Shown here: positions 3,088 through 26,019 of the stretch, one piece after another
How positions within the stretch are numbered: the stretch's first letter is position 1
Layout: each line of letters opens with the position of its first letter
From: a bacterium
GTDB lineage: Bacteria > Acidobacteriota > Polarisedimenticolia > J045
Assembly: GCA_021372775.1 (NCBI GenBank)
Contig: JAJFTU010000158.1
Coordinates: 1-36,746, forward strand
Length of the DNA stretch: 36,746 bases
Reading direction: 5' to 3'
Program-made: the position numbers and the translations under genes
Notes under the pieces: model-generated
Seen by the model: the letters and a program-made list of their open reading frames with translations, nothing else
Database searches by the model: none
What the model was told of the DNA's origin: nothing

Positions 3088-3671
3088 GCGGGCCGCGGCG
3101 CGAGGCGAAAGGCGCGGCGCCGCGCGAAGCGGCGAAGACGCCGGCGCGCGACGCGGACGACGCCGCCCTCCGCGGAACGGAAGACGCGGCGCCGCGCGAG
3201 GCGTCCTCGAAGATCCTGCCGCGCGAGGAGCTGGCGCGGCGGCTCGCCGGGGCGGCGAACGTTGCGCTCTGCAACGGCCTCTTCGACGTCGTCCACGTCG
3301 GCCACGCCCGCTACCTCGCCGACGCCAAGCGGCGCGCCGGAACGCTCGTCGTGGCGCTCAACGACGACGCGTCGGCGGCGGCGAACAAGGGGCCGTCGCG
3401 GCCGCTCGTGCCGCTCGCCGAGCGGCTGGAGGTCGTCGCCTCGTTCCGCGCCGTGGACTACGTCACCTGGTTTCCGGAACGGACGGTCGCGGCGACGCTG
3501 GAGCTGCTCCGGCCGCGCTGGCACGCCAAGGGGACCGACTACCGCCCGGAGACGCTCCCGGCGGAGGAGCGGGCGCTCCACGCCCGCCTCGGCGTCGAGC
3601 CGCTGATCGTCGGCGACGAGAAGACGCACGCCACCACCGACATCGTCGCCGCCGTCCTCTCGCGCGGCTGA
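3084..3671 (+). CDS. rfaE2: D-glycero-beta-D-manno-heptose 1-phosphate adenylyltransferase (RfaE domain II)
   Basis: A 195-residue nucleotidyltransferase, equivalent to the C-terminal domain of HldE, that makes ADP-heptose. The cytidylyltransferase-type HxGH motif is HVGH at residues 71-74, in NGLFDVVHVGHARYLADAK; the later GPSRPLVPLAERLEVV matches the family. An unusual N-terminal tail of about 45 residues, rich in Ala/Arg/Glu and containing AAPREA or a close variant three times, precedes the catalytic domain. No alternative start lies between the tail and the domain, and ATG 3084 overlaps the kinase stop, so the tail is probably translated. Last gene of the LPS operon; it converges with the GGDEF gene on the other strand 14 bp later. 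Confidence 0.9.
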   Translation: MSGPRREAKGAAPREAAKTPARDADDAALRGTEDAAPREASSKILPREELARRLAGAANVALCNGLFDVVHVGHARYLADAKRRAGTLVVALNDDASAAANKGPSRPLVPLAERLEVVASFRAVDYVTWFPERTVAATLELLRPRWHAKGTDYRPETLPAEERALHARLGVEPLIVGDEKTHATTDIVAAVLSRG

Positions 3672-3685
3672 GGCGCCGCCCGCGG

Positions 3686-5920
3686 TCACTCGGCCGGCGT
3701 CGTCCCTTCGGCCGGCACGACGCGGTTGCGCCCCGCCGCCTTCGCGCGGTAGAGCGCGGCGTCGGCGCGGCGCACCAGTTCATCGGCCTCGTGGACCGCG
3801 TCGGGGCGCATCGCGGCCACGCCGACGCTGACGCTCACCCGCCCTTCCGGCGCGTCCTCGTGCGGCAGGTCGAGCGCCACGACGGCGTCGAGGAAGCGGC
3901 GCGCGACTTCGAGCGCCCCCGCGGCGTCGGTCTCCGGCATGATGCAGACGAACTCCTCGCCGCCGTAGCGGGCGACGAGGTCGTGCGGGCGCTTCGCCGC
4001 CCCCGCGAGGGCGCGGGCGACCGCCTTGAGGCATTCGTCGCCGCGGGCGTGGCCGTAGCGGTCGTTGAACCGCTTGAAGTAGTCGACGTCGATCATCGCC
4101 AGCGCCAGATGACGATGACCGCGGCGCGCGGCACGCCAGGCGCGCGCCAGTTGGGCGTCGAACCGCCGGCGGTTCGCGACGCCGGTCAGGCCGTCGACGA
4201 GCGACTGCGCGAGCAGCAGGTCGCGCGCCCGCTTGAGCGCCAAGTGGTTGCGCACGCGCAGCCGGACGAGCAGCGGGCTGATCGGCGAAGAGATGAAGTC
4301 GATCGCCCCGGCCTGCAGCGCGTACGCCTGATCGTCGGGGCCGGCGCCGCGGGCGACGAAGATCACCGGGATGCGCGCGGTCGCCGGATCGCGCGCGAGA
4401 CGCGAGCAGACCTCGACGCCGTCCATGCCCGGGAGGGCGAGGTCGAGCAGGATCAGGTCCGGCTGCAGCGATTGGGCGATCCGCAGCGCGTCCGGCCCGG
4501 CGGCCGCCTCCGCCACGACGTACTCGTCGCGCAGGACCGCGGCGAGGATCTCGCGCGAGGCGGCGTCGGCGTTCGCGACCAACAGCGTCCCGCCGGTCTC
4601 CGCTTCGTCCGCGGCCTCGTCGCCCGCGTCGGCGTCGGCGGCCTCGCGGTCCGTCCCGCGGACGCGCGTCGAGACCGAGAGCGGGATCGGCGCCGGCCCC
4701 CGCGGCGCGGGCGCCTCGCCGGTCTCCTCCTCCGCCGCCGCGAGCGTCTCCGGCGGCAGCGCGAAGCGGAACGACGTTCCTTCCGCCGCCGACGTCTCGA
4801 ACCAGACTTCGCCGCCCAAGAGCCGCTCGCCGAGCAGCTTCATCGCGTAGGCGCCGAGGCCGCGTCCCTTCGCGCTCTTGGTGCTGAAGGAGCGCTCGAA
4901 GATCCGCTCCGCGATCTCGCGGGGAATCTCCCCTTCGTTCCGCACGGTGAACGTCGGCCGCCCGCCTTCGACGTCGTACGACGCGCGCGCCGTCCCGCCC
5001 GGCGGCGTGGCCTCGAGCGCGTTGCGGACCATGTCGAGCAGCACGCGCGCCGCGAGCGTCGGGTCGGTCTGGATCCGCGCGTCCGACGACGCCTCGACGA
5101 CGAGCGTCCGTCCCTCCGCCTCCGCGCCGAGCGTCGCGACCCGCTCGACGTCCCGCAGCAGGGCCGCCGGATCGACCGGCCGGCGCTCGAGCGCCAGCGT
5201 CCCGGCCTCGGCGAGCACGATCGCGTGGTGGCTCATCACCTCCGTCGCCAGCCGCGCCGTCAGCCCGAGCACGCTCTCCGCCGCCGCCTCGCGGGCCGCC
5301 GGATCGTCGTCGGTCAGGCGGCGCGCGACCCCCTTGAGGCCGCCGAGCGCGCCGACGAGATGGCGCAGGAAGACGCTCTCCAGCACGTCGCGCCGCTTCG
5401 CCGCGCTGATGTCCTGCAGCACGAAGGCGAGCAGCCGCTGGCCGGCGATCTCGATCGGCGTGCAGCGGACGCGGAACTCGGCCGCGCCGCGGACGCCGCC
5501 GCGGTCGATCGTCATCCGGCACTCGCCGCCCGCGGCGGCGTGGTCGAGTTGCGCGGAGAGGATCGTCAGCACCGCGCCGCAGTGCGCGCAGGCCTTGCTG
5601 GTGCCGCAGCCGCCGGGCCCTTCCGCCGCGTGGACGCAGCAGAAGACCTCGCCGGGGCGCAGCCCCTCGAGCCGCCGCTGGTCGTTCGCCTCGAGCGCCA
5701 GCAGCACTTCGGTGTTCGCGGCGACGACCTGCCGCCGCTCGTTGAGGAGCAGCACGTAGCCGGAGAAGGCGTCGAGCAGCGCCCGCGTCACCGGATTCTC
5801 GAGGCAGAAGCGGGCCGCCCTCCGCACGTCCTCCTCGCGGGCCCGTTCCGCCGGCGCGAAGAACGTCGTCGAAGGAGCCGTCCCCCCGCCCATCGCCTGC
5901 TCGTCGTCGCCGATCATCAT
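3686..5920 (-). CDS. PAS / kinase-like / receiver-like / GGDEF diguanylate cyclase
   Basis: A 744-residue soluble signalling protein. Order: PAS-like domain (about 40-172) with a cysteine cluster (C95, C105, C111, C114); histidine-kinase-like region (about 180-390) with N300 and a glycine-rich RSFSTK...GRGLGAYAMKLLGERL lid; acidic linker; receiver-like domain (about 445-565); GGDEF domain (about 570-740). The active site is GGEEF (653-657), with an inhibitory RxxD I-site R644-D647 five residues before it, so c-di-GMP synthesis with product inhibition is expected. The phospho-relay parts look degenerate: the expected DHp HD pair reads R186-H187, the receiver acidic pocket reads N450-A451, and the conserved Thr and Lys are A523 and S545. 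D493 remains. Start ATG 5920 follows GAGGGG; ATG 5917 is an alternative. The same frame runs on to 7039 only because it reads across rodA out of frame. Confidence 0.88.
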   Translation of the reverse strand: MMIGDDEQAMGGGTAPSTTFFAPAERAREEDVRRAARFCLENPVTRALLDAFSGYVLLLNERRQVVAANTEVLLALEANDQRRLEGLRPGEVFCCVHAAEGPGGCGTSKACAHCGAVLTILSAQLDHAAAGGECRMTIDRGGVRGAAEFRVRCTPIEIAGQRLLAFVLQDISAAKRRDVLESVFLRHLVGALGGLKGVARRLTDDDPAAREAAAESVLGLTARLATEVMSHHAIVLAEAGTLALERRPVDPAALLRDVERVATLGAEAEGRTLVVEASSDARIQTDPTLAARVLLDMVRNALEATPPGGTARASYDVEGGRPTFTVRNEGEIPREIAERIFERSFSTKSAKGRGLGAYAMKLLGERLLGGEVWFETSAAEGTSFRFALPPETLAAAEEETGEAPAPRGPAPIPLSVSTRVRGTDREAADADAGDEAADEAETGGTLLVANADAASREILAAVLRDEYVVAEAAAGPDALRIAQSLQPDLILLDLALPGMDGVEVCSRLARDPATARIPVIFVARGAGPDDQAYALQAGAIDFISSPISPLLVRLRVRNHLALKRARDLLLAQSLVDGLTGVANRRRFDAQLARAWRAARRGHRHLALAMIDVDYFKRFNDRYGHARGDECLKAVARALAGAAKRPHDLVARYGGEEFVCIMPETDAAGALEVARRFLDAVVALDLPHEDAPEGRVSVSVGVAAMRPDAVHEADELVRRADAALYRAKAAGRNRVVPAEGTTPAE

Positions 5921-16842: not shown

Positions 16843-16957
16843 TGACGATTTCGTCGGGGCGATGACGAGGGCGGCGCCCGGGCGGCACGGTCGGCGCCGC
16901 TTGCGGGAAGCGCGTTGTTCGTCGTCGTCCGGGGAAAACCACAGCCCGAGAGTTCGC

Positions 16958-16986
16958 TGGACGCCCCGTTCCCTCCGCTGTACAGT
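16958..16986 (+). promoter_or_regulatory. Candidate promoter of the TPR-histidine kinase operon
   Basis: TGGACG (16958-16963) and TACAGT (16981-16986) are separated by 17 nt, each matching 4 of 6 consensus bases. It lies 109 bp upstream of the TPR gene start. Predicted by eye. Confidence 0.38.
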
Positions 16987-17095
16987 CCGGCAGGTGCGTG
17001 GGCGATCCGTCCGTTCGCCCGCGAAACGCGACACGACGTCGCCTCCGGCGGCCGCGAGCACGGCTTTTGCAAGCCGCCGCAGGCGGAGGGGTGCA

Positions 17096-17647
17096 ATGAC
17101 GGACCATCCATCGCTCGAAACGCTGCGCCGCGCCCGCGACGCCCACAAGGCGGGACGCGGCCGCGAGGCGCTCGCCTTGGCCGAGGCCGCGCACCGCATG
17201 GCCACCGAAATGCCCGGCGCGCCCCCGCAGGCGGCGGCCGCCGAAGGGCTCTACGGCTACCTCCTGGGCACGGTCGGCGGGCGGATGGAAAGCGGCCTCG
17301 CCTTCTGCCGCCACGCCGTCGACAACTGCTTCTGGGAGCCGTCGGTCTACGAGACGTTGGCCCGGCTGGAGCTGGCCGCGGGAAACCGGCGCGAAGCGAT
17401 CGCCGTCCTCGACCGCGGTCTGGCGATGGCGGGGGGCGCCCGCGAACTGCGCGATCTCCGCGCGTCGCTCGGCCGCCGTCGGGCCCCCGCGATTCCGTTC
17501 CTGGACCGCAGCCATCCGTTCAACCGCTGGATCGGGATCCTTCGCGCGAGAAGCGCGGCCGCGCCGGCCGTCCAGGCCGTTCCCGCCGCCTCCTCCGCGC
17601 GCGGCTCGCGCGGGCGCATCCTCGGCGTTCCCGACTATCACCGGTGA
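17096..17647 (+). CDS. Small TPR-like protein, function unknown
   Basis: A 183-residue soluble protein with two or three tetratricopeptide-like helix pairs. Examples are ARDAHKAGRGREALALAEAAHRMA, GLAFCRHAVDNCFWEPSVYETLARLELAAGNRREAIAVLDRGLAMAGG and a basic C-terminal tail. No signal peptide or catalytic motif was seen. The start ATG 17096 follows GGAGGGG. Its stop overlaps the GTG start of the histidine kinase (GTGA at 17644-17647), so the two are coupled. The TPR fold suggests protein binding, and the kinase is the natural candidate partner, but that is inference. The frame extends upstream to 16862 without family-like sequence. Confidence 0.8.
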   Translation: MTDHPSLETLRRARDAHKAGRGREALALAEAAHRMATEMPGAPPQAAAAEGLYGYLLGTVGGRMESGLAFCRHAVDNCFWEPSVYETLARLELAAGNRREAIAVLDRGLAMAGGARELRDLRASLGRRRAPAIPFLDRSHPFNRWIGILRARSAAAPAVQAVPAASSARGSRGRILGVPDYHR

Positions 17648-19686
17648 CCGCCCGGTCCTCGCGGAAGATCGTCCTGCGGCGCGTCGCGATCGCCTCCGCC
17701 GCCTTCGTCGCGTTCCAAGTCGCCTTCGCGGCCCTGACCGCGCACGTTGCGCCGGAGGGGCTCCGCTGGTGCCCCGTGGCGGGCGTCGCGTTCTTCTTCG
17801 CGCTGCTGCTCGGGACCACGGCGATTCCCGCGTTCGCCGCGGCGACGGCCATCGTCTTCGCGACGGGAGCGGCCGCGCTGCAGGGAGGCGGGGCGGCGCT
17901 GGAGTTCGCGTTCTTCGTCGCCGGCGCCTGCGTCGTCCGCGCGGCGATCGGCCGCCCGCCGCGGATCGACGTGCCGCGGGACGCGCTCGTCCTCGCCGGC
18001 GCGACGTTGGGAGTCGCCGCGTTCGACGCCCTGACGGCGCACGCGCTGCTGGTCCCGGAAGGCGGCTGGAGCGCGGCCGCCGGCGCGGCGTTGGCGCAGG
18101 CGACGTCGACGCTCGCCCTCGGCGCCCCGCTCCTGATTCTCGCCGGCCCCACGGTCGGCGCATGGCTGCACGGAGCGCTGCCCCAGCAGCGGACGCGCGC
18201 CGAGCGGCGGGGCGCGCCGCGCGATCCGCGCGCCTTCGGCGCCGCGGCGGCGCTCGCGCTGACCACCGTCGCCGCGGGCGCCTCGGTGCTTTGCCTCTCC
18301 GAGCGGACCGCCGGCTACGGCGCCTACCTGCTGCTCGTCCCGCTCGTCTGGGGCTCGGTCCGCTTCGGCCTGCGCGGCTTCGCCTGGGTGGCGCTGGCCG
18401 CCGACGCGGTGTCGCTCACGCACGTCGCCGGCGCGCCGGTCCAGTTCCATCTCTTCGTCATGGTCCTCTGCGGCCTGCTCGTCGCCGCGGCCGCCGAGGG
18501 GCACCGGCGGCTGCTGCGGAGCCTGCGCCACGCCGCCGAAGGGCGTCAGGCGCTGCTCGACGCGCTCCCGGACATGATGTTCCGCGAGTCGGCCGGCGGC
18601 GTGTTCCTCGAGTTCCACGGCGCCTCCGACTCCCCGCTCATCGCCAAGCCGGCGTCGTTCGTCGGCCGGCGCGCCGCCGAGATCCTGCCGCCGCCGCTCG
18701 CCGCGCTCGACGAGCGCATGCGGCGGCGGGCGCTGGAGACGCGGGCGCTCCAGCAGTACGAGTACTCGCTGCCGCTCGGCGGCGAGGAACTCTGGTTCGA
18801 GGCGCGGATCGTGCCGTGCGGCGACGAGGAGACGCTGGCCGTCGTCCGCGACGTGACCGAGCGGCGCCGCGCCGAGGAGGACCGGCGGCAGTTCGAGGCG
18901 CAGATCCGCCACGCGCAGAAGCTGGAGAGCCTCGGCGTCCTCGCCGGCGGCATCGCGCACGACTTCAACAACCTGCTCGCCGCGGTCCTCGGCAACATCG
19001 AGCTCGCCGCGCTCGACATCCCCGCAGGCTGCCCCGCCGCGGCGCGGGCCGCCGACGCCGGACAGGCCGCGCGACGCGCCGCCGACCTGACCCGCCAGCT
19101 CCTCGCCTATTCGGGCAAGGGGAAGATGGAGGTCGTCCCGGTCGATCTCTCCGCGGTCGCCCGCGAGATGGGGCGGCTGCTCGCCGTCTCGATCTCGAAG
19201 ACGGCCCGCGTCGAGTACCTGCTCGCCGACGACCTGCCGCCGGTGACCGCCGATCCGTCGCAGATCAGGCAGGTCTTCATGAACCTGCTGACCAACGCCT
19301 CGGAGGCGCTCGGCGGGCGCGACGGACTGATCACCGTCCGCACCGGCGAGGCCGAGTGCGAGCCGGAGACGCTGCGGGCCGCCTACCGCGCGGACGACAT
19401 GCCGCGCGGCCGCGCGGCGTTCATCGAAGTCGGCGACAACGGCTGCGGCATGGACGAGGAGACGAAGAGCCGGCTGTTCGATCCGTTCTTCAGCACGAAG
19501 TTCACCGGCCGCGGCCTGGGCATGGCGGCGGTGCTGGGGATCGTCCGCGGCCACCGCGGCGCGATCGACGTCGTCGCCGATCCCGGCCGGGGCTCGATCG
19601 TCCGCGTCTACTTCCCCGCCGCCGCGACCGCCGGGGGCGGCGCCGCCGACGAGGCGCGCGAGCCGGCCGGCGTCACGGCCGACTGA
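17644..19686 (+). CDS. Membrane sensor histidine kinase (MASE1-like, PAS, HisKA, HATPase)
   Basis: A 680-residue kinase. The N-terminal half (about 10-285) has about eight membrane segments resembling the MASE1 sensor (GLRWCPVAGVAFFFALLLGTTAIPAF). A PAS domain (about 300-405) and a HisKA box GGIAHDFNNLLAAVLGN follow, with phospho-accepting H439. The ATPase domain has the N-box MNLLTNASEAL, G1 DNGCGMD, F-box FDPFFSTK and G2 GRGLGMAA. All catalytic parts look intact. No receiver domain is fused and no regulator gene is next to it, so its output partner is elsewhere. GTG 17644 overlaps the TPR stop. The last 14 bp overlap tail to tail with the permease gene on the other strand. Confidence 0.9.
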   Translation: MTARSSRKIVLRRVAIASAAFVAFQVAFAALTAHVAPEGLRWCPVAGVAFFFALLLGTTAIPAFAAATAIVFATGAAALQGGGAALEFAFFVAGACVVRAAIGRPPRIDVPRDALVLAGATLGVAAFDALTAHALLVPEGGWSAAAGAALAQATSTLALGAPLLILAGPTVGAWLHGALPQQRTRAERRGAPRDPRAFGAAAALALTTVAAGASVLCLSERTAGYGAYLLLVPLVWGSVRFGLRGFAWVALAADAVSLTHVAGAPVQFHLFVMVLCGLLVAAAAEGHRRLLRSLRHAAEGRQALLDALPDMMFRESAGGVFLEFHGASDSPLIAKPASFVGRRAAEILPPPLAALDERMRRRALETRALQQYEYSLPLGGEELWFEARIVPCGDEETLAVVRDVTERRRAEEDRRQFEAQIRHAQKLESLGVLAGGIAHDFNNLLAAVLGNIELAALDIPAGCPAAARAADAGQAARRAADLTRQLLAYSGKGKMEVVPVDLSAVAREMGRLLAVSISKTARVEYLLADDLPPVTADPSQIRQVFMNLLTNASEALGGRDGLITVRTGEAECEPETLRAAYRADDMPRGRAAFIEVGDNGCGMDEETKSRLFDPFFSTKFTGRGLGMAAVLGIVRGHRGAIDVVADPGRGSIVRVYFPAAATAGGGAADEAREPAGVTAD

Positions 19687-21587: not shown

Positions 21588-22910
21588 TCAGAGCAGCCCG
21601 AACTGGCGCAGCCGCGCGCGCAGGTCCGGCTCCGACATCCCGAGCCGCGCCGCCGCGCGGGCGACGTCCCCTTCCGCCTCCTCGAGGTGCCGCCGCAGCC
21701 AGGTGGACTCGAAGCGGCGGAGCGTGGCGACGATCCCCTCCTCCTCGGTCTCCTCGCCGCCGGCGAAGTGCGCCGGCAGGTCGGCGAGCCGCGCCACCCG
21801 CCCCGGCGTCAGCAGCACGAGCCGCTCGAGGGTGCGCTGCAGCTCCCGCACGTTCCCCGGCCATTCGTAGCGCAGCAGCGCGAACATCGTCTCCGGCGCC
21901 AGCAGCATGTCCTCGCGCGCGTACTCGCGCGTCAGCTCGCCGAGGAACCGCTCGCACAGCTCGGGGATGTCGTCGCGCCGGTCGCGCAGCGTCGGCGTCT
22001 CCACGACGTGCGGGAAGACGTCGAGGAACGCCGCGCCGAGCGCCCCCTCCGCGGCGAGCTTCTCCGGCGCCGCCTGCAGCGCGACGATCAGCTGCGGCCC
22101 GCTGCGCACGCGCCGGCCGGTGGCCGGGCAGACGAAGGCCCCCGACCGCACGCCGTCCACCAGCAGCTCCTGCACGTCGGCCGGCAGCGCGTCGGCGTTC
22201 TCGAGGTAGAGCGCGCCTTCGTCGGCCAGCGCGATCCGCCCGCTCTCCTCGTCGTCCGCGGGATCGCCGAAGAGGGCCGCGAGCAGCCGCTCGCCGGGCA
22301 GCGCGGAGACCTGCACGTCGAGGAACGGGCCGTCCGGATGGAGGGAGTGGAGCGACAGCCAGCGCGCCGCGAGACGACGGCCGGTCCCCTTCTCGCCGTG
22401 GAGCAGCACCGGGCGGCCGTCCGCCGCGCCGGCCAGCTCGCGCCGCAGCCGCTCGACCCGCGCGCTCTTCCCGACGAACTCCGCCTCGCGCCGCAGCTCG
22501 GCGCTCAAGGCGCGGTTGCGCCGTTCGAGCCGTGCGTGGCGCAGCGCGTTGGCGGCGACGACGAGCACGCGGTCGAGCGAGACCGGCTTCTCGACGAAGT
22601 CGTACGCGCCGAGCTTCGTCGCCTTGACCGCCGTCTCGATCGTGCCGTGGCCTGAGATCATCACCACCGGCGCGGCGACGCCCCGTTCGCGCAGGTGCTT
22701 GAGCGCCTCGATGCCGTCGATCCCGGGGAGCCAGATGTCGAGGAAGATCGCGTCGGGCGCGCACTCCGCGGCCCGCTTGATCCCTTCCTCCGCCGACTCC
22801 GCGCCGACGACTTCGTATCCCTCGTCCTCGAGGATCTGCGCGAGGGCGCGGCGCACCGGCTCCTCGTCGTCCACCACCAAGATCCGGCCCCGCCGCTCCT
22901 GCCCGTCCAT
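21588..22910 (-). CDS. ntrX: NtrX/NtrC-like response regulator with a degenerate AAA+ domain
   Basis: A 440-residue regulator. The receiver (about 8-120) is complete: D14, D15, phospho-acceptor D58, S86 and K108. The AAA+ region (about 143-375) is recognisable by LRDRRDDIPELCERFL and YEWPGNVRELQRTLERLVLL but has lost key parts. Walker A reads GEKGTGRR with R178 for Lys, Walker B reads LYLENAD with N238 for the catalytic Glu, and the GAFTGA sigma-54-contact loop is missing (AALFGDPADDEESGRIALADEGA). A Fis-type HTH (GDVARAAARLGMSEPDLRARLRQFGLL) ends the protein. It probably binds DNA in a phosphorylation-dependent way but cannot remodel sigma-54 holoenzyme. It lies 16 bp after the NtrY-like kinase. 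The symbol reflects the pairing; NtrX versus another NtrC relative is not proven. Confidence 0.87.
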   Translation of the reverse strand: MDGQERRGRILVVDDEEPVRRALAQILEDEGYEVVGAESAEEGIKRAAECAPDAIFLDIWLPGIDGIEALKHLRERGVAAPVVMISGHGTIETAVKATKLGAYDFVEKPVSLDRVLVVAANALRHARLERRNRALSAELRREAEFVGKSARVERLRRELAGAADGRPVLLHGEKGTGRRLAARWLSLHSLHPDGPFLDVQVSALPGERLLAALFGDPADDEESGRIALADEGALYLENADALPADVQELLVDGVRSGAFVCPATGRRVRSGPQLIVALQAAPEKLAAEGALGAAFLDVFPHVVETPTLRDRRDDIPELCERFLGELTREYAREDMLLAPETMFALLRYEWPGNVRELQRTLERLVLLTPGRVARLADLPAHFAGGEETEEEGIVATLRRFESTWLRRHLEEAEGDVARAAARLGMSEPDLRARLRQFGLL

Positions 22911-22926: not shown

Positions 22927-25089
22927 TCAGGCGGCCGTCGCCGCGGGCAGCTCGATCACGACCCGCGCCCCGCCGCCGGGGTTGTCCTCGACCCGGATCC
23001 GTCCGCCGTGCTCGAGGACGACTTGCTCGACGATCGCCAGCCCCAGGCCCGTCCCGCCGGGGCGGCGCGTGAAGTCAGGTTGGAACATCCGCGCCCGGTC
23101 CTCGGGCGGCACGCCGGGGCCATTGTCCGCCACTTCCAGCGCCACGGCGCGCCCGCCGTGGGCCGCCGCGGTCCGCACGGTCACCGCGCCGTCCGCGCCG
23201 ACCACCGCCACGGCGTTGTCGAGGAGGTTGATCAGGCAGCGGCGCAGCGCCTCGGGGTCGATCCGGTGCGGCGGAAGGTCGGCGGCGAGTTCGGCGGCGA
23301 AGCGCAGGTGGGCGTGCGAATTGCGGTAGAGCGCCAGCGCCTCGCCGACGACGTCGTTGATCGAGGCCGGCCGCGGCTTGATCTCCGGCAGCCGCGCGAA
23401 GCGCGAGAACTCGGAGACCAGCCGCTGGATGCTCTCCACCTCGCGCACGATCGTCGCCGTCCCTTCCTCGATCACCGGCAGGAAGTCGTCGGTCCCCTTG
23501 CGGTAGCGGCGGAGCATCCGCTCGGCGGAGAGGCGGATCGGCGTCAGCGGGTTCTTGATCTCGTGCGCCAGCCGCCGCGCGACCTCGCCCCACGCGGCGA
23601 GCCGCTCCGCGCGGCGCAGGCGGGTGAGGTCCTCGAGCACGACGAGCACCGCGTCGTCCCCCGCGCCGACCGCGAAGCGCGCGGCCGAGGCGACGAGCGT
23701 GACCTGCGCGCCGCGCACCGAGACCGTCGTCTCCCCCGCCGCGCGTTCGGCCTCGCCGGCGACGAGCGGCCGCAGCGCGCGGGCCAGCGGCTCGAGGCCG
23801 CCGCCGAGGAACTCGCCGAGCGGCGCGCCCGGCTCGACCGTCTCGAGGCCGAGGACGTCGAGCGCGGCGCGGTTGACCGCCGTCGCCCGCCCCGCGGCGT
23901 CGAGGCCGACGACGCCGACCGGGATCGACTCCAGCAGCGTGGCGATGTAGCGGCCGCGCTCCTCGAGGTCCACGCGCGCCCGTTCGAGTTCGCGCGCCAT
24001 GCGGTTGAACGAGGCGGCGAGCCGGCCGACCTCGTCCCCCGTCCGCTCGGCGACGCGGTAGGAGAGTTCGCCGCGGGCCAGCGCCTCGGTGCCGCGGGCG
24101 AGGTCGAGGATCGGCTCGGTCACCTGCCGCGCGATCAGGAAGCCGGCCCAGACCGCGGCGAAGAGGACGAGGATCGTCAGGAGCGCGAAGAGGGTGAAGT
24201 AGAGCCGCTCGACGCTGCTCCGGCTGCCGCGGAAGCCGCGCCAGTCGGCGGCGGCGCTCTCGATCGCCTCGAAGCGGCGGGCGTCCTCCTCGCCGACGTA
24301 GAGCGCGGTCCAGGCGAGGCCGCCGCCCGCCGACGCGGGGAGCGGCTCGGCGGCGACGACCCGCTCGCCGAACGGCAGCCGGTCGCGCGCCGCGCGCCCC
24401 TGCCCGAGCTCCGCGACCTTCTCCGCGAGGCCTTCGGGCAGGCGCGTCAGCTCGCTCGGGCGGATCGCCTCCGCGCCGCCGGCCGGCGCCGACGCGACCG
24501 CGAGCGGCGCCCCGACGCGCGGCGCGTAGCCGACCGCGGCGAGGCCGTAGCGGCGCCGCGCCTCGTCGAGCGTCTTCGCCAGTTCGCCCCGCGCGGGGCT
24601 GTCGCCGCGGGCCAGCGGGCCGGCGGCGAGGTCGCGCGCGAGAGCCCGCGCGAGGCGCGCCGCCTGGTCCTCCTGCCCGCGCCGCGCCGCCTCGACGACC
24701 TGCGCCGCCTCGAGCACCGGCTCCGGCGGCGCGAGGTCGGAGAGGGAGCGGCGGACCATGCCGATCGCCGCGGCGAAGAGGATCACCGACGGGAGCAGCA
24801 CGAGCAGCAGGAACGCGAACGTCACCCGCGCCTGCAGCCGCGAGCCGAGGAGCCCGCGCCGCCGTCCGGCGAGGACGCGGCCGAGGTTGCGCACGCCGAC
24901 GAAGGCGAAGGCGAGCAGCAGGCCGACGATGGCGACGGTGAGCAGCGAGAGGAGCGTCTTGTCGGAGGCGAGGCGGGTGTCGCCGACCTTTCCCCGCTGC
25001 ACCACGTAGTAGACGCCGACGGCGAGGACGAGCAGGACGACGCCCGCGACGAGCCCCACCCGGTCGAGACGCAGCCGGATCCGCTTCAC
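22927..25089 (-). CDS. ntrY: NtrY-like membrane sensor histidine kinase
   Basis: A 720-residue kinase with NtrY architecture: three N-terminal membrane segments (about 13-31, 46-68, 90-110), a periplasmic region, a fourth membrane helix (297-319) and a HAMP domain (about 320-372). A PAS domain (about 380-490) and a HisKA box LAHEIKNPLTPIRLSAERM with H509 follow. The HATPase domain has INLLDNAVAVV, DNGPGVPPE and GGTGLGLAIVEQVVLEHGG. All phosphotransfer residues are present. GTG 25089 begins 7 bp after the lpxC stop with only a weak Shine-Dalgarno, so coupling to lpxC is likely. Probably phosphorylates the adjacent NtrX-like regulator. Confidence 0.9.
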   Translation of the reverse strand: MKRIRLRLDRVGLVAGVVLLVLAVGVYYVVQRGKVGDTRLASDKTLLSLLTVAIVGLLLAFAFVGVRNLGRVLAGRRRGLLGSRLQARVTFAFLLLVLLPSVILFAAAIGMVRRSLSDLAPPEPVLEAAQVVEAARRGQEDQAARLARALARDLAAGPLARGDSPARGELAKTLDEARRRYGLAAVGYAPRVGAPLAVASAPAGGAEAIRPSELTRLPEGLAEKVAELGQGRAARDRLPFGERVVAAEPLPASAGGGLAWTALYVGEEDARRFEAIESAAADWRGFRGSRSSVERLYFTLFALLTILVLFAAVWAGFLIARQVTEPILDLARGTEALARGELSYRVAERTGDEVGRLAASFNRMARELERARVDLEERGRYIATLLESIPVGVVGLDAAGRATAVNRAALDVLGLETVEPGAPLGEFLGGGLEPLARALRPLVAGEAERAAGETTVSVRGAQVTLVASAARFAVGAGDDAVLVVLEDLTRLRRAERLAAWGEVARRLAHEIKNPLTPIRLSAERMLRRYRKGTDDFLPVIEEGTATIVREVESIQRLVSEFSRFARLPEIKPRPASINDVVGEALALYRNSHAHLRFAAELAADLPPHRIDPEALRRCLINLLDNAVAVVGADGAVTVRTAAAHGGRAVALEVADNGPGVPPEDRARMFQPDFTRRPGGTGLGLAIVEQVVLEHGGRIRVEDNPGGGARVVIELPAATAA

Positions 25090-25096
25090 GACGCCG

Positions 25097-25984
25097 TCAC
25101 GCGCCCGGCGGCTTGGGCGAGGCGAGCGGGCCCGGGCCGCCTTCGAGATACCACGCCGAGCGGTCGGCGAGCAGCGCGTCCACCAGCCGGCCGTGCAGGT
25201 CGTGCCCGCTGCGCCAGGCGACGATCCGCCCCTCCAGCGAGCAGCCGAGCAGCGCGAGGTCGCCGACGAGGTCGAGCAGCTTGTGGCGCACGAACTCGTC
25301 CGGGAAGCGGAGCGGAATCCCCTCCACCCCCTCGTCGCCGACGAAGATCGCGTTGTCGAGCGAGCCCCCCTTGGCCAGCCCCATCGCCTGCAGCTTGTCC
25401 ACGTCCCGCTTCATGCCGAACGTGCGCGCCGGGGCGAGCTTCTCGAGGAAGTCCTCGGCGCGGTCGAGGCGGACGGTCAGCTCCTGATAGCCGAGCGCCT
25501 CGTGCTCGAAGTCGATCGCCGCGGTGATCCGCAGGCCGGGACCGGGATGGATCTCCAGCCGCCGCCCTTCGTCGCCGACCGCGACGCGCTGTGCGACGAC
25601 CATCACCGGCCGCGGCGGCGCCTGCTCCTCGAAGCCGGCCTCGAGCAGCGCCCGCGCGAACGGCAGCGCCGAGCCGTCGAGGATCGGCACCTCCGGCCCG
25701 GAGAGCCGCAGATAGGCGTTGTCCACGCCGAGGGCGTAGAGCGACGCGAGCAGGTGCTCCGGCGTGTCGATCGACGCCCCCTCGCGGCTCAGGCGGCTGG
25801 CGTGGACCATGCCGGACCGGTTCTGCTGCAAAGCCGGAACGAGGAAGTCGCCCAGGTCCTCGCGGACGAAGACCAGTCCCGTCCCCGCGGGCGCCGGCTC
25901 GACGATCAAGCGCGCCGGTTGGCCGCGGTGCAGGCCGACCCCGTCGAGGCGGGCGGGACGCCGCACGGTACGTTGCGCACGCAT
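25097..25984 (-). CDS. lpxC: UDP-3-O-acyl-N-acetylglucosamine deacetylase
   Basis: A 295-residue zinc deacetylase carrying out the committed step of lipid A synthesis in the cytoplasm. Catalytic and metal residues are visible: E76-H77 in TPEHLLASL, H234 and D238 in FVRHKLLDLVGDLAL, and the late SGHDLHG histidines H261/H264. The N-terminus MRAQRTVRRPARLDGVGLHRG aligns well with known LpxC starts, which fixes ATG 25984. A TAGAAT box only 6 nt upstream raises the possibility of a leaderless message. It is the first gene of a run with the NtrY/NtrX-like pair and a permease. Confidence 0.96.
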   Translation of the reverse strand: MRAQRTVRRPARLDGVGLHRGQPARLIVEPAPAGTGLVFVREDLGDFLVPALQQNRSGMVHASRLSREGASIDTPEHLLASLYALGVDNAYLRLSGPEVPILDGSALPFARALLEAGFEEQAPPRPVMVVAQRVAVGDEGRRLEIHPGPGLRITAAIDFEHEALGYQELTVRLDRAEDFLEKLAPARTFGMKRDVDKLQAMGLAKGGSLDNAIFVGDEGVEGIPLRFPDEFVRHKLLDLVGDLALLGCSLEGRIVAWRSGHDLHGRLVDALLADRSAWYLEGGPGPLASPKPPGA

Positions 25985-25990
25985 AAGCGG

Positions 25991-26019
25991 ATTCTACACG
26001 CCGCACTCGTCATTGACCG
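25991..26019 (-). promoter_or_regulatory. Candidate lpxC promoter giving a leaderless transcript
   Basis: Minus-strand TAGAAT (25996-25991, 5 of 6 to TATAAT) ends 6 nt before the lpxC ATG. CGGTCA lies 17 nt upstream (26019-26014, 3 of 6 to TTGACA). If used, transcription would begin at or next to the A of the ATG. The -35 overlaps that of the divergent promoter on the other strand. Confidence 0.4.

Follow-up and report, generated by a model that had tools for sequence, protein, structure and literature searches.

What can a response regulator do when its receiver domain is intact, and the motor of a sigma-54 activator is not? The question is raised by a gene in an Acidobacteriota genome (G000; 3.67 Mb in 494 contigs, 99.6% complete), within a stretch of 36,746 nucleotides that is called here the window. 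A preliminary description had taken the product for an NtrX-like protein with a preserved receiver and a preserved Fis-type helix-turn-helix (HTH), in which the AAA+ domain would have become a pure dimerisation or spacer module. The gene has an ATG start and lies in a minus-strand operon with the order lpxC-ntrY-ntrX:

25097..25984, minus strand: lpxC, UDP-3-O-acyl-GlcNAc deacetylase (TIGR00325, 260.6 bits, cut-off 187), 7 bp upstream of ntrY
22927..25089, minus strand: NtrY-like sensor histidine kinase with HAMP, PAS, HisKA and HATPase domains (translation and profile searches), 16 bp upstream of ntrX
21588..22910, minus strand: NtrX-like response regulator with a predicted dead AAA+ domain, 440 aa, stop codon included (ORF, Pfam, NCBIfam and fold match)
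22563..22883, minus strand: receiver domain, residues 10-116 (Pfam, 106 bits)
22041..22475, minus strand: degenerate AAA+ alpha/beta domain, residues 146-290, the stretch matched by Pfam (Sigma54_activat, 50.9 bits)
21741..21986, minus strand: AAA lid domain, residues 309-390, well conserved (PF25601, 78.4 bits)
21840..21860, minus strand: sensor II motif PGNVREL, residues 351-357, kept (alignment)
21600..21725, minus strand: Fis-type HTH fold, residues 396-437 (HTH_8, PF02954, 25.1 bits, cut-off 22)

The closest NCBIfam model is NtrX (NF051870, 260 bits). The curated cut-off of 600 is not reached; it should be noted that motor-intact orthologues of the same class also fall below it, with 438-470 bits. 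Brucella abortus NtrX (PDB 5m7n/5m7o/5m7p) has the same three-domain layout and is the best match in a PDB sequence search (E 7e-61). It is also the best full-length fold match (E 6e-39) of the AlphaFold2 (AF2) model, which has a pLDDT of 91 and an intact AAA+ fold, and the gene follows an ntrY-like gene, as expected of ntrX. By profile, PDB sequence and fold, NtrX is thus the nearest named family, and the regulator is the NtrX orthologue partnering NtrY, in agreement with the original naming. All residues of a phosphorylatable receiver reported earlier are indeed present, i.e., the Asp pair D14/D15, the acceptor D58, S86 and K108. In the NtrY-like kinase, the H-box LAHEIKNPLT and the N/G boxes appear intact, as read from the translation.

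The alignment placed the damage to the motor in four segments:

22374..22397, minus strand: Walker A, GEKGTGRR, residues 172-179, with Lys178 replaced by Arg and the glycines kept
22227..22277, minus strand: L1 region, residues 212-228, from which GAFTGA is deleted
22197..22214, minus strand: Walker B, ALYLEN, residues 233-238, with DE changed to EN
21999..22046, minus strand: residues 289-304, where the arginine-finger segment has been lost

The three losses named at the outset (the Walker A Lys as R178, the Walker B Glu as N238, and GAFTGA, in whose place there is a deletion, LFGDPADDEESGRIALAD) were all found at these positions; nevertheless, that list was incomplete, because the Walker B Asp237 is replaced by Glu, and the sensor-I Asn and the arginine-finger segment FREDLYxRL are missing or replaced as well. 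The alignments put the degenerate motifs in their expected places, the AF2 match to Brucella NtrX is full-length, and neither an intact P-loop Lys nor a GAFTGA is present at any other place in the protein. Brucella NtrX likewise lacks GAFTGA, but has the Walker A Lys, the Walker B Asp-Glu pair and the arginine-finger segment that are gone here; it was crystallised with ATP and ADP. The window protein also differs from it in an altered recognition helix. Because GAFTGA, the Walker A Lys, the Walker B Asp-Glu, the arginine fingers and the sensor-I Asn, each a defining feature of sigma-54 enhancer-binding proteins, have disappeared, the motor is almost certainly dead, and neither ATP hydrolysis nor sigma-54 remodelling is predicted. 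The activator features that persist are the sensor II motif GNVREL and the lid fold; what is left of the ATP site is its three P-loop glycines plus the Arg of sensor II.

The same losses recur in relatives. In the family of G000 (f1), orthologues were found in 10 of the 11 other genomes (61-69% identity); none was found in G011, an 85% complete genome in which no close ntrY was seen either. Together with the window protein and those of 10 genomes of three further families (f8, f9 and f10), this gives 21 syntenic orthologues, hereafter degenerate proteins, and all 21 have Arg178, a broken Walker B without its Asp, and no GAFTGA. The f8-f10 proteins have lost an extra stretch around sensor I. 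Conversely, all 14 motor-intact orthologues in the class have the Walker A Lys, and in six families (f2, f3, f4, f6, f11 and f12) the locus encodes a complete activator of the sigma-54 type. The Sigma54_activat score is 41-75 bits in the degenerate proteins versus 226-245 bits in the intact orthologues (172 in f7), whereas receiver scores are 96-110 bits (full-length degenerate proteins) and 96-115 bits (intact). Annotation of such genes is therefore doubtful, since they match Sigma54_activat although they are unable, on this prediction, to serve as sigma-54 activators.

In an NtrX tree from which the motif columns had been excluded, the degenerate proteins form a single clade (support 100/99), so that a single change is enough to explain them; an lpxC+NtrY tree likewise needs one change, with neighbouring branches poorly resolved. 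Among 60 relatives from many phyla, the Walker A Lys is lost only in five sequences, all belonging to the degenerate clade. Family f7 (G027, L187:8001-9338) has lost GAFTGA and most of the recognition-helix residues and has kept the Walker A Lys and the Walker B Asp-Glu. It stands beside the degenerate clade in the NtrX tree; the GAFTGA loss of f7 may, however, be an independent event rather than an intermediate, because the lpxC+NtrY tree puts the intact f11 closer to that clade. A second NtrC-type regulator of G000 (L017, contig C214, match 3436-3783) has the Walker A sequence GEDGAGRC (Lys to Arg), no GAFTGA, a changed Walker B and a normal recognition helix, DRKTLREKLR; this is apparently a separate motor loss with DNA reading kept. 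In the open-licence literature, we came across no description of an acidobacterial NtrX with a dead motor.

Loss of sigma-54 itself was considered as the cause and rejected, since rpoN (PF04552) was found in 38 of the 41 genomes of the class, among them 20 of the 21 that carry a degenerate NtrX. The remaining one is G000, where the whole genome gave no Sigma54_DBD or Sigma54_CBD match. The presence of RpoN there is nevertheless implied, because 15 further activators encoded in G000 contain GAFTGA or a closely similar sequence and its relatives have rpoN; the missing gene is probably an assembly gap.

If the motor no longer works, does the protein still read DNA? The segment in question is:

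21603..21635, minus strand: recognition helix SEPDLRARLRQ, residues 426-436, with canonical DNA contacts replaced (alignment, AF2)

The fold of the Fis-type HTH is kept, as claimed (Pfam; AF2 helices 416-423 and 427-436), but the basic and polar recognition-helix contacts typical of PF02954 are not. Intact orthologues of the class mostly have ERS[H/N]LYRK at this place, and the degenerate clade mostly S-x-[E/D/P]-[E/D]-L-x-x-R. The net charge of the helix is +2.9 in the intact proteins versus +0.3 and +0.1 in the degenerate ones, and positions 427-433 contain about 2.1 acidic residues versus 0.05 in the intact set (f7 included). In about 30 further activators encoded by genomes of this family, the average at these positions is 0.4 acidic residues and the helices are non-acidic; base composition is therefore an unlikely source of the acidic helix. 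At the start of the HTH, Asp replaces Asn in 19 of 20 degenerate-clade proteins, and several f8-f10 proteins terminate within the recognition helix or just past it. In LuxO, alanine at the corresponding helix Ser, Tyr, Arg or Lys abolishes DNA binding in each case (PMC11407668). Some of the helix positions are also variable in other functional Fis-type HTHs. We consider it probable, from these replacements, that canonical DNA recognition has been lost. Some DNA binding may be left in the f1 proteins, given that the scaffold of their HTH, GDxxRAAxRLG, shows strong conservation and that 9/10 have Arg at position 433.

Comparison of substitution rates pointed in the same direction. Over the whole gene, close pairs have a dN/dS of 0.05-0.21, which indicates that it is functional. 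In pairs of degenerate proteins, dN/dS was 0.04-0.11 for the receiver and 0.01-0.23 for the AAA+ and lid domains, and pN/pS of the recognition helix, a short segment for which the estimate is rough, was 0.27-0.65 in three degenerate pairs versus 0-0.07 in three intact pairs. In motor-intact families, mean pairwise identity is 76% for the AAA+ core, 75% for the recognition helix and 65% for the receiver, whereas the order is reversed in the degenerate clade (receiver 76%, AAA+ 63% and helix 47% in f1; 72%, 47% and 23% in f8-f10). According to these sequence comparisons, the receiver is under strong purifying selection and the constraint on the recognition helix is relaxed in the degenerate clade. 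Conservation of the linker was set aside as a sign of new function, because f1 (84%) is close to the intact f2 (85%).

The precedents invoked in the preliminary description hold in part. The NtrC proteins of Rhodobacter capsulatus and Caulobacter share with the window protein the deletion in the L1 loop and the absence of sigma-54 contact, and they do work with sigma-70; however, R. capsulatus NtrC requires ATP binding and Caulobacter NtrC cannot function without the residues of Walker A and B (PMC10274813), whereas the window protein has lost both Walker motifs. Atypical enhancer-binding proteins of the VpsR/FleQ type also combine an AAA+ fold with an absent or changed GAFTGA, and VpsR is reported to function without ATP (PMC10274813); these proteins bind c-di-GMP and DNA, and their fold similarity to the window protein is lower. 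The key arginine of a FleQ-like c-di-GMP site was not seen by eye before the AAA+ domain of the window protein. Four gammaproteobacterial NtrX-like proteins (L066:6001-7338, L068:6001-7338, L071:6001-7338 and L074:6001-7344) have lost GAFTGA and have LKD, LKE or LDG as Walker B, but differ from the window protein in the intact Walker A Lys and recognition helix ERTHLYRKL; judging by their sequences, these are probably independent ATPase losses in NtrX. The window protein thus goes beyond the GAFTGA-less activators that we found described, which retain DNA recognition and, in the NtrC cases, also a working or ATP-binding motor.

The surroundings of the gene bear on its possible targets. The order lpxC-ntrY-ntrX is kept across the class (41 genomes) wherever the contig is long enough, with the motor intact or dead. 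Upstream of lpxC, the following element was found:

25991..25996, minus strand: TAGAAT, a hexamer resembling a -10 element, a short distance before the ATG of lpxC

A hexamer TA[GC]A[AC]T precedes lpxC in nine genomes of the family (the window and eight relatives), and in 9/9 it lies a few bases from the ATG (25985-25996, minus strand, in the window), which suggests a leaderless transcript or a true start further on. Beyond this hexamer, a search upstream of lpxC in the nine genomes showed no shared operator-like block. On the plus strand of the window, positions 16915-19686 encode a sensor histidine kinase with PAS_4 and HATPase_c domains and no response regulator seen beside it; a similar kinase (35% identity) is found near ntrX in G001 (L175:10978-13407). 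It is possible that the window kinase is a second input to the ntrX system.

Taking these observations together, we lean slightly toward an ATPase-dead, sigma-54-independent derivative of NtrX that is switched by phosphorylation and whose output is likelier to go through protein contact than through DNA. NtrY would phosphorylate D58, as the intact residues and the operon suggest; the AAA+ fold and the lid would persist as a static oligomerisation body, possibly nucleotide-loaded; and the output would consist of phosphorylation-dependent contact with other proteins, rather than canonical NtrX-type DNA binding. Output through protein contacts, favored because the recognition helix has lost its canonical contact residues and the receiver is still conserved, has by itself a little less than an even chance. 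The partner might be NtrY, some other regulator or a protein of the envelope, for instance LpxC from the same operon. There are functional analogies: in Brucella, the response regulator CenR controls envelope function by protein contact with EssS-EssR (PMC10592609), and a single-domain response regulator is reported to act on a phosphoglycosyl transferase through protein contact (PMC12802240). The output domains of these regulators are not homologous to those of the window protein.

The main rival, which is also the model of the preliminary description, is a DNA-binding activator or repressor of sigma-70 promoters with an altered helix and an altered operator, in which the AAA+ domain would serve only for phosphorylation-controlled oligomerisation. 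The GAFTGA-less NtrC proteins and VpsR do regulate sigma-70 promoters (PMC10274813), in R. sphaeroides NtrX binds promoters of envelope genes and lpxC transcripts rise 8.8-fold when it is lost (PMC7240162), the motor-impaired gammaproteobacterial proteins retain their recognition helix, and the hexamer at lpxC is sigma-70-like. The HTH_8 cut-off of 22 is passed by G000 and four other f1 proteins; it is failed by 5 of the 9 other family proteins, and the scores are 34-50 bits in intact proteins, 16-29 in f1 and from none to 33 in f8-f10. Against this model, positions 428-429 are acidic across the degenerate clade with relaxed constraint, the truncated f8-f10 proteins end in or just after the very helix, and there is no common operator-like block at lpxC. 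Regulation by DNA binding does not follow when the recognition residues are replaced, and we regard this model as rather unlikely.

The second rival is a pseudo-ATPase, in which Arg178 holds ATP or ADP unhydrolysed and locks an oligomeric state that transmits receiver phosphorylation; it is compatible with either of the models above. The corresponding substitutions in RecA (K72R) and Rad51 (K133R) leave ATP bound and not hydrolysed. GxxG[ST]GR is invariant in 21/21 degenerate proteins, the sensor-II Arg is kept in 19/21, and the AAA+ fold is intact in the AF2 model. This conservation exceeds the needs of a pure spacer and counts against our favored reading; a scaffold that binds nucleotide without hydrolysing it is possible, and the pure dimerisation or spacer module of the preliminary description is not established. 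However, the Walker B Asp, the Mg2+ ligand, is changed in all of the proteins, the sensor-I Asn is lost, and the glycines may be retained for reasons of fold; we regard the pseudo-ATPase, too, as rather unlikely.

A phosphate sink that only takes phosphoryl groups away from NtrY or some other kinase, with no output of its own, would account for a receiver that is most constrained while the motor and DNA-recognition parts are relaxed; it is improbable, given that the AAA+ and lid domains are under purifying selection and that a mere sink does not need a protein of 420-440 residues kept whole. An ordinary pseudogene or artefact of the 494-contig assembly, sequencing error and chance can be dismissed, given the intact reading frame, the low dN/dS and the same substitutions in 21 assemblies.

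As to the biology, NtrYX acts negatively on the transcription of lpxC in both R. sphaeroides and C. crescentus (PMC7240162, PMC12444477), and by this analogy an envelope role of the degenerate NtrX is likely. The regulatory link between NtrYX and lpxC, known in Alphaproteobacteria (PMC12444477), is here built into the operon, which makes LpxC a candidate target. That a regulator without ATP-driven activation or DNA reading acts as a phosphorylation-controlled scaffold on envelope proteins, e.g., LpxC, is a speculative and quite doubtful extension; if true, a transcription factor would have turned into a post-translational regulator of lipid A synthesis. At one syntenic locus, a single class of bacteria combines complete sigma-54 activators, a GAFTGA-less form and a clade without the motor and DNA-recognition residues, and the loss of an AAA+ motor thereby becomes directly testable through orthologue swaps.
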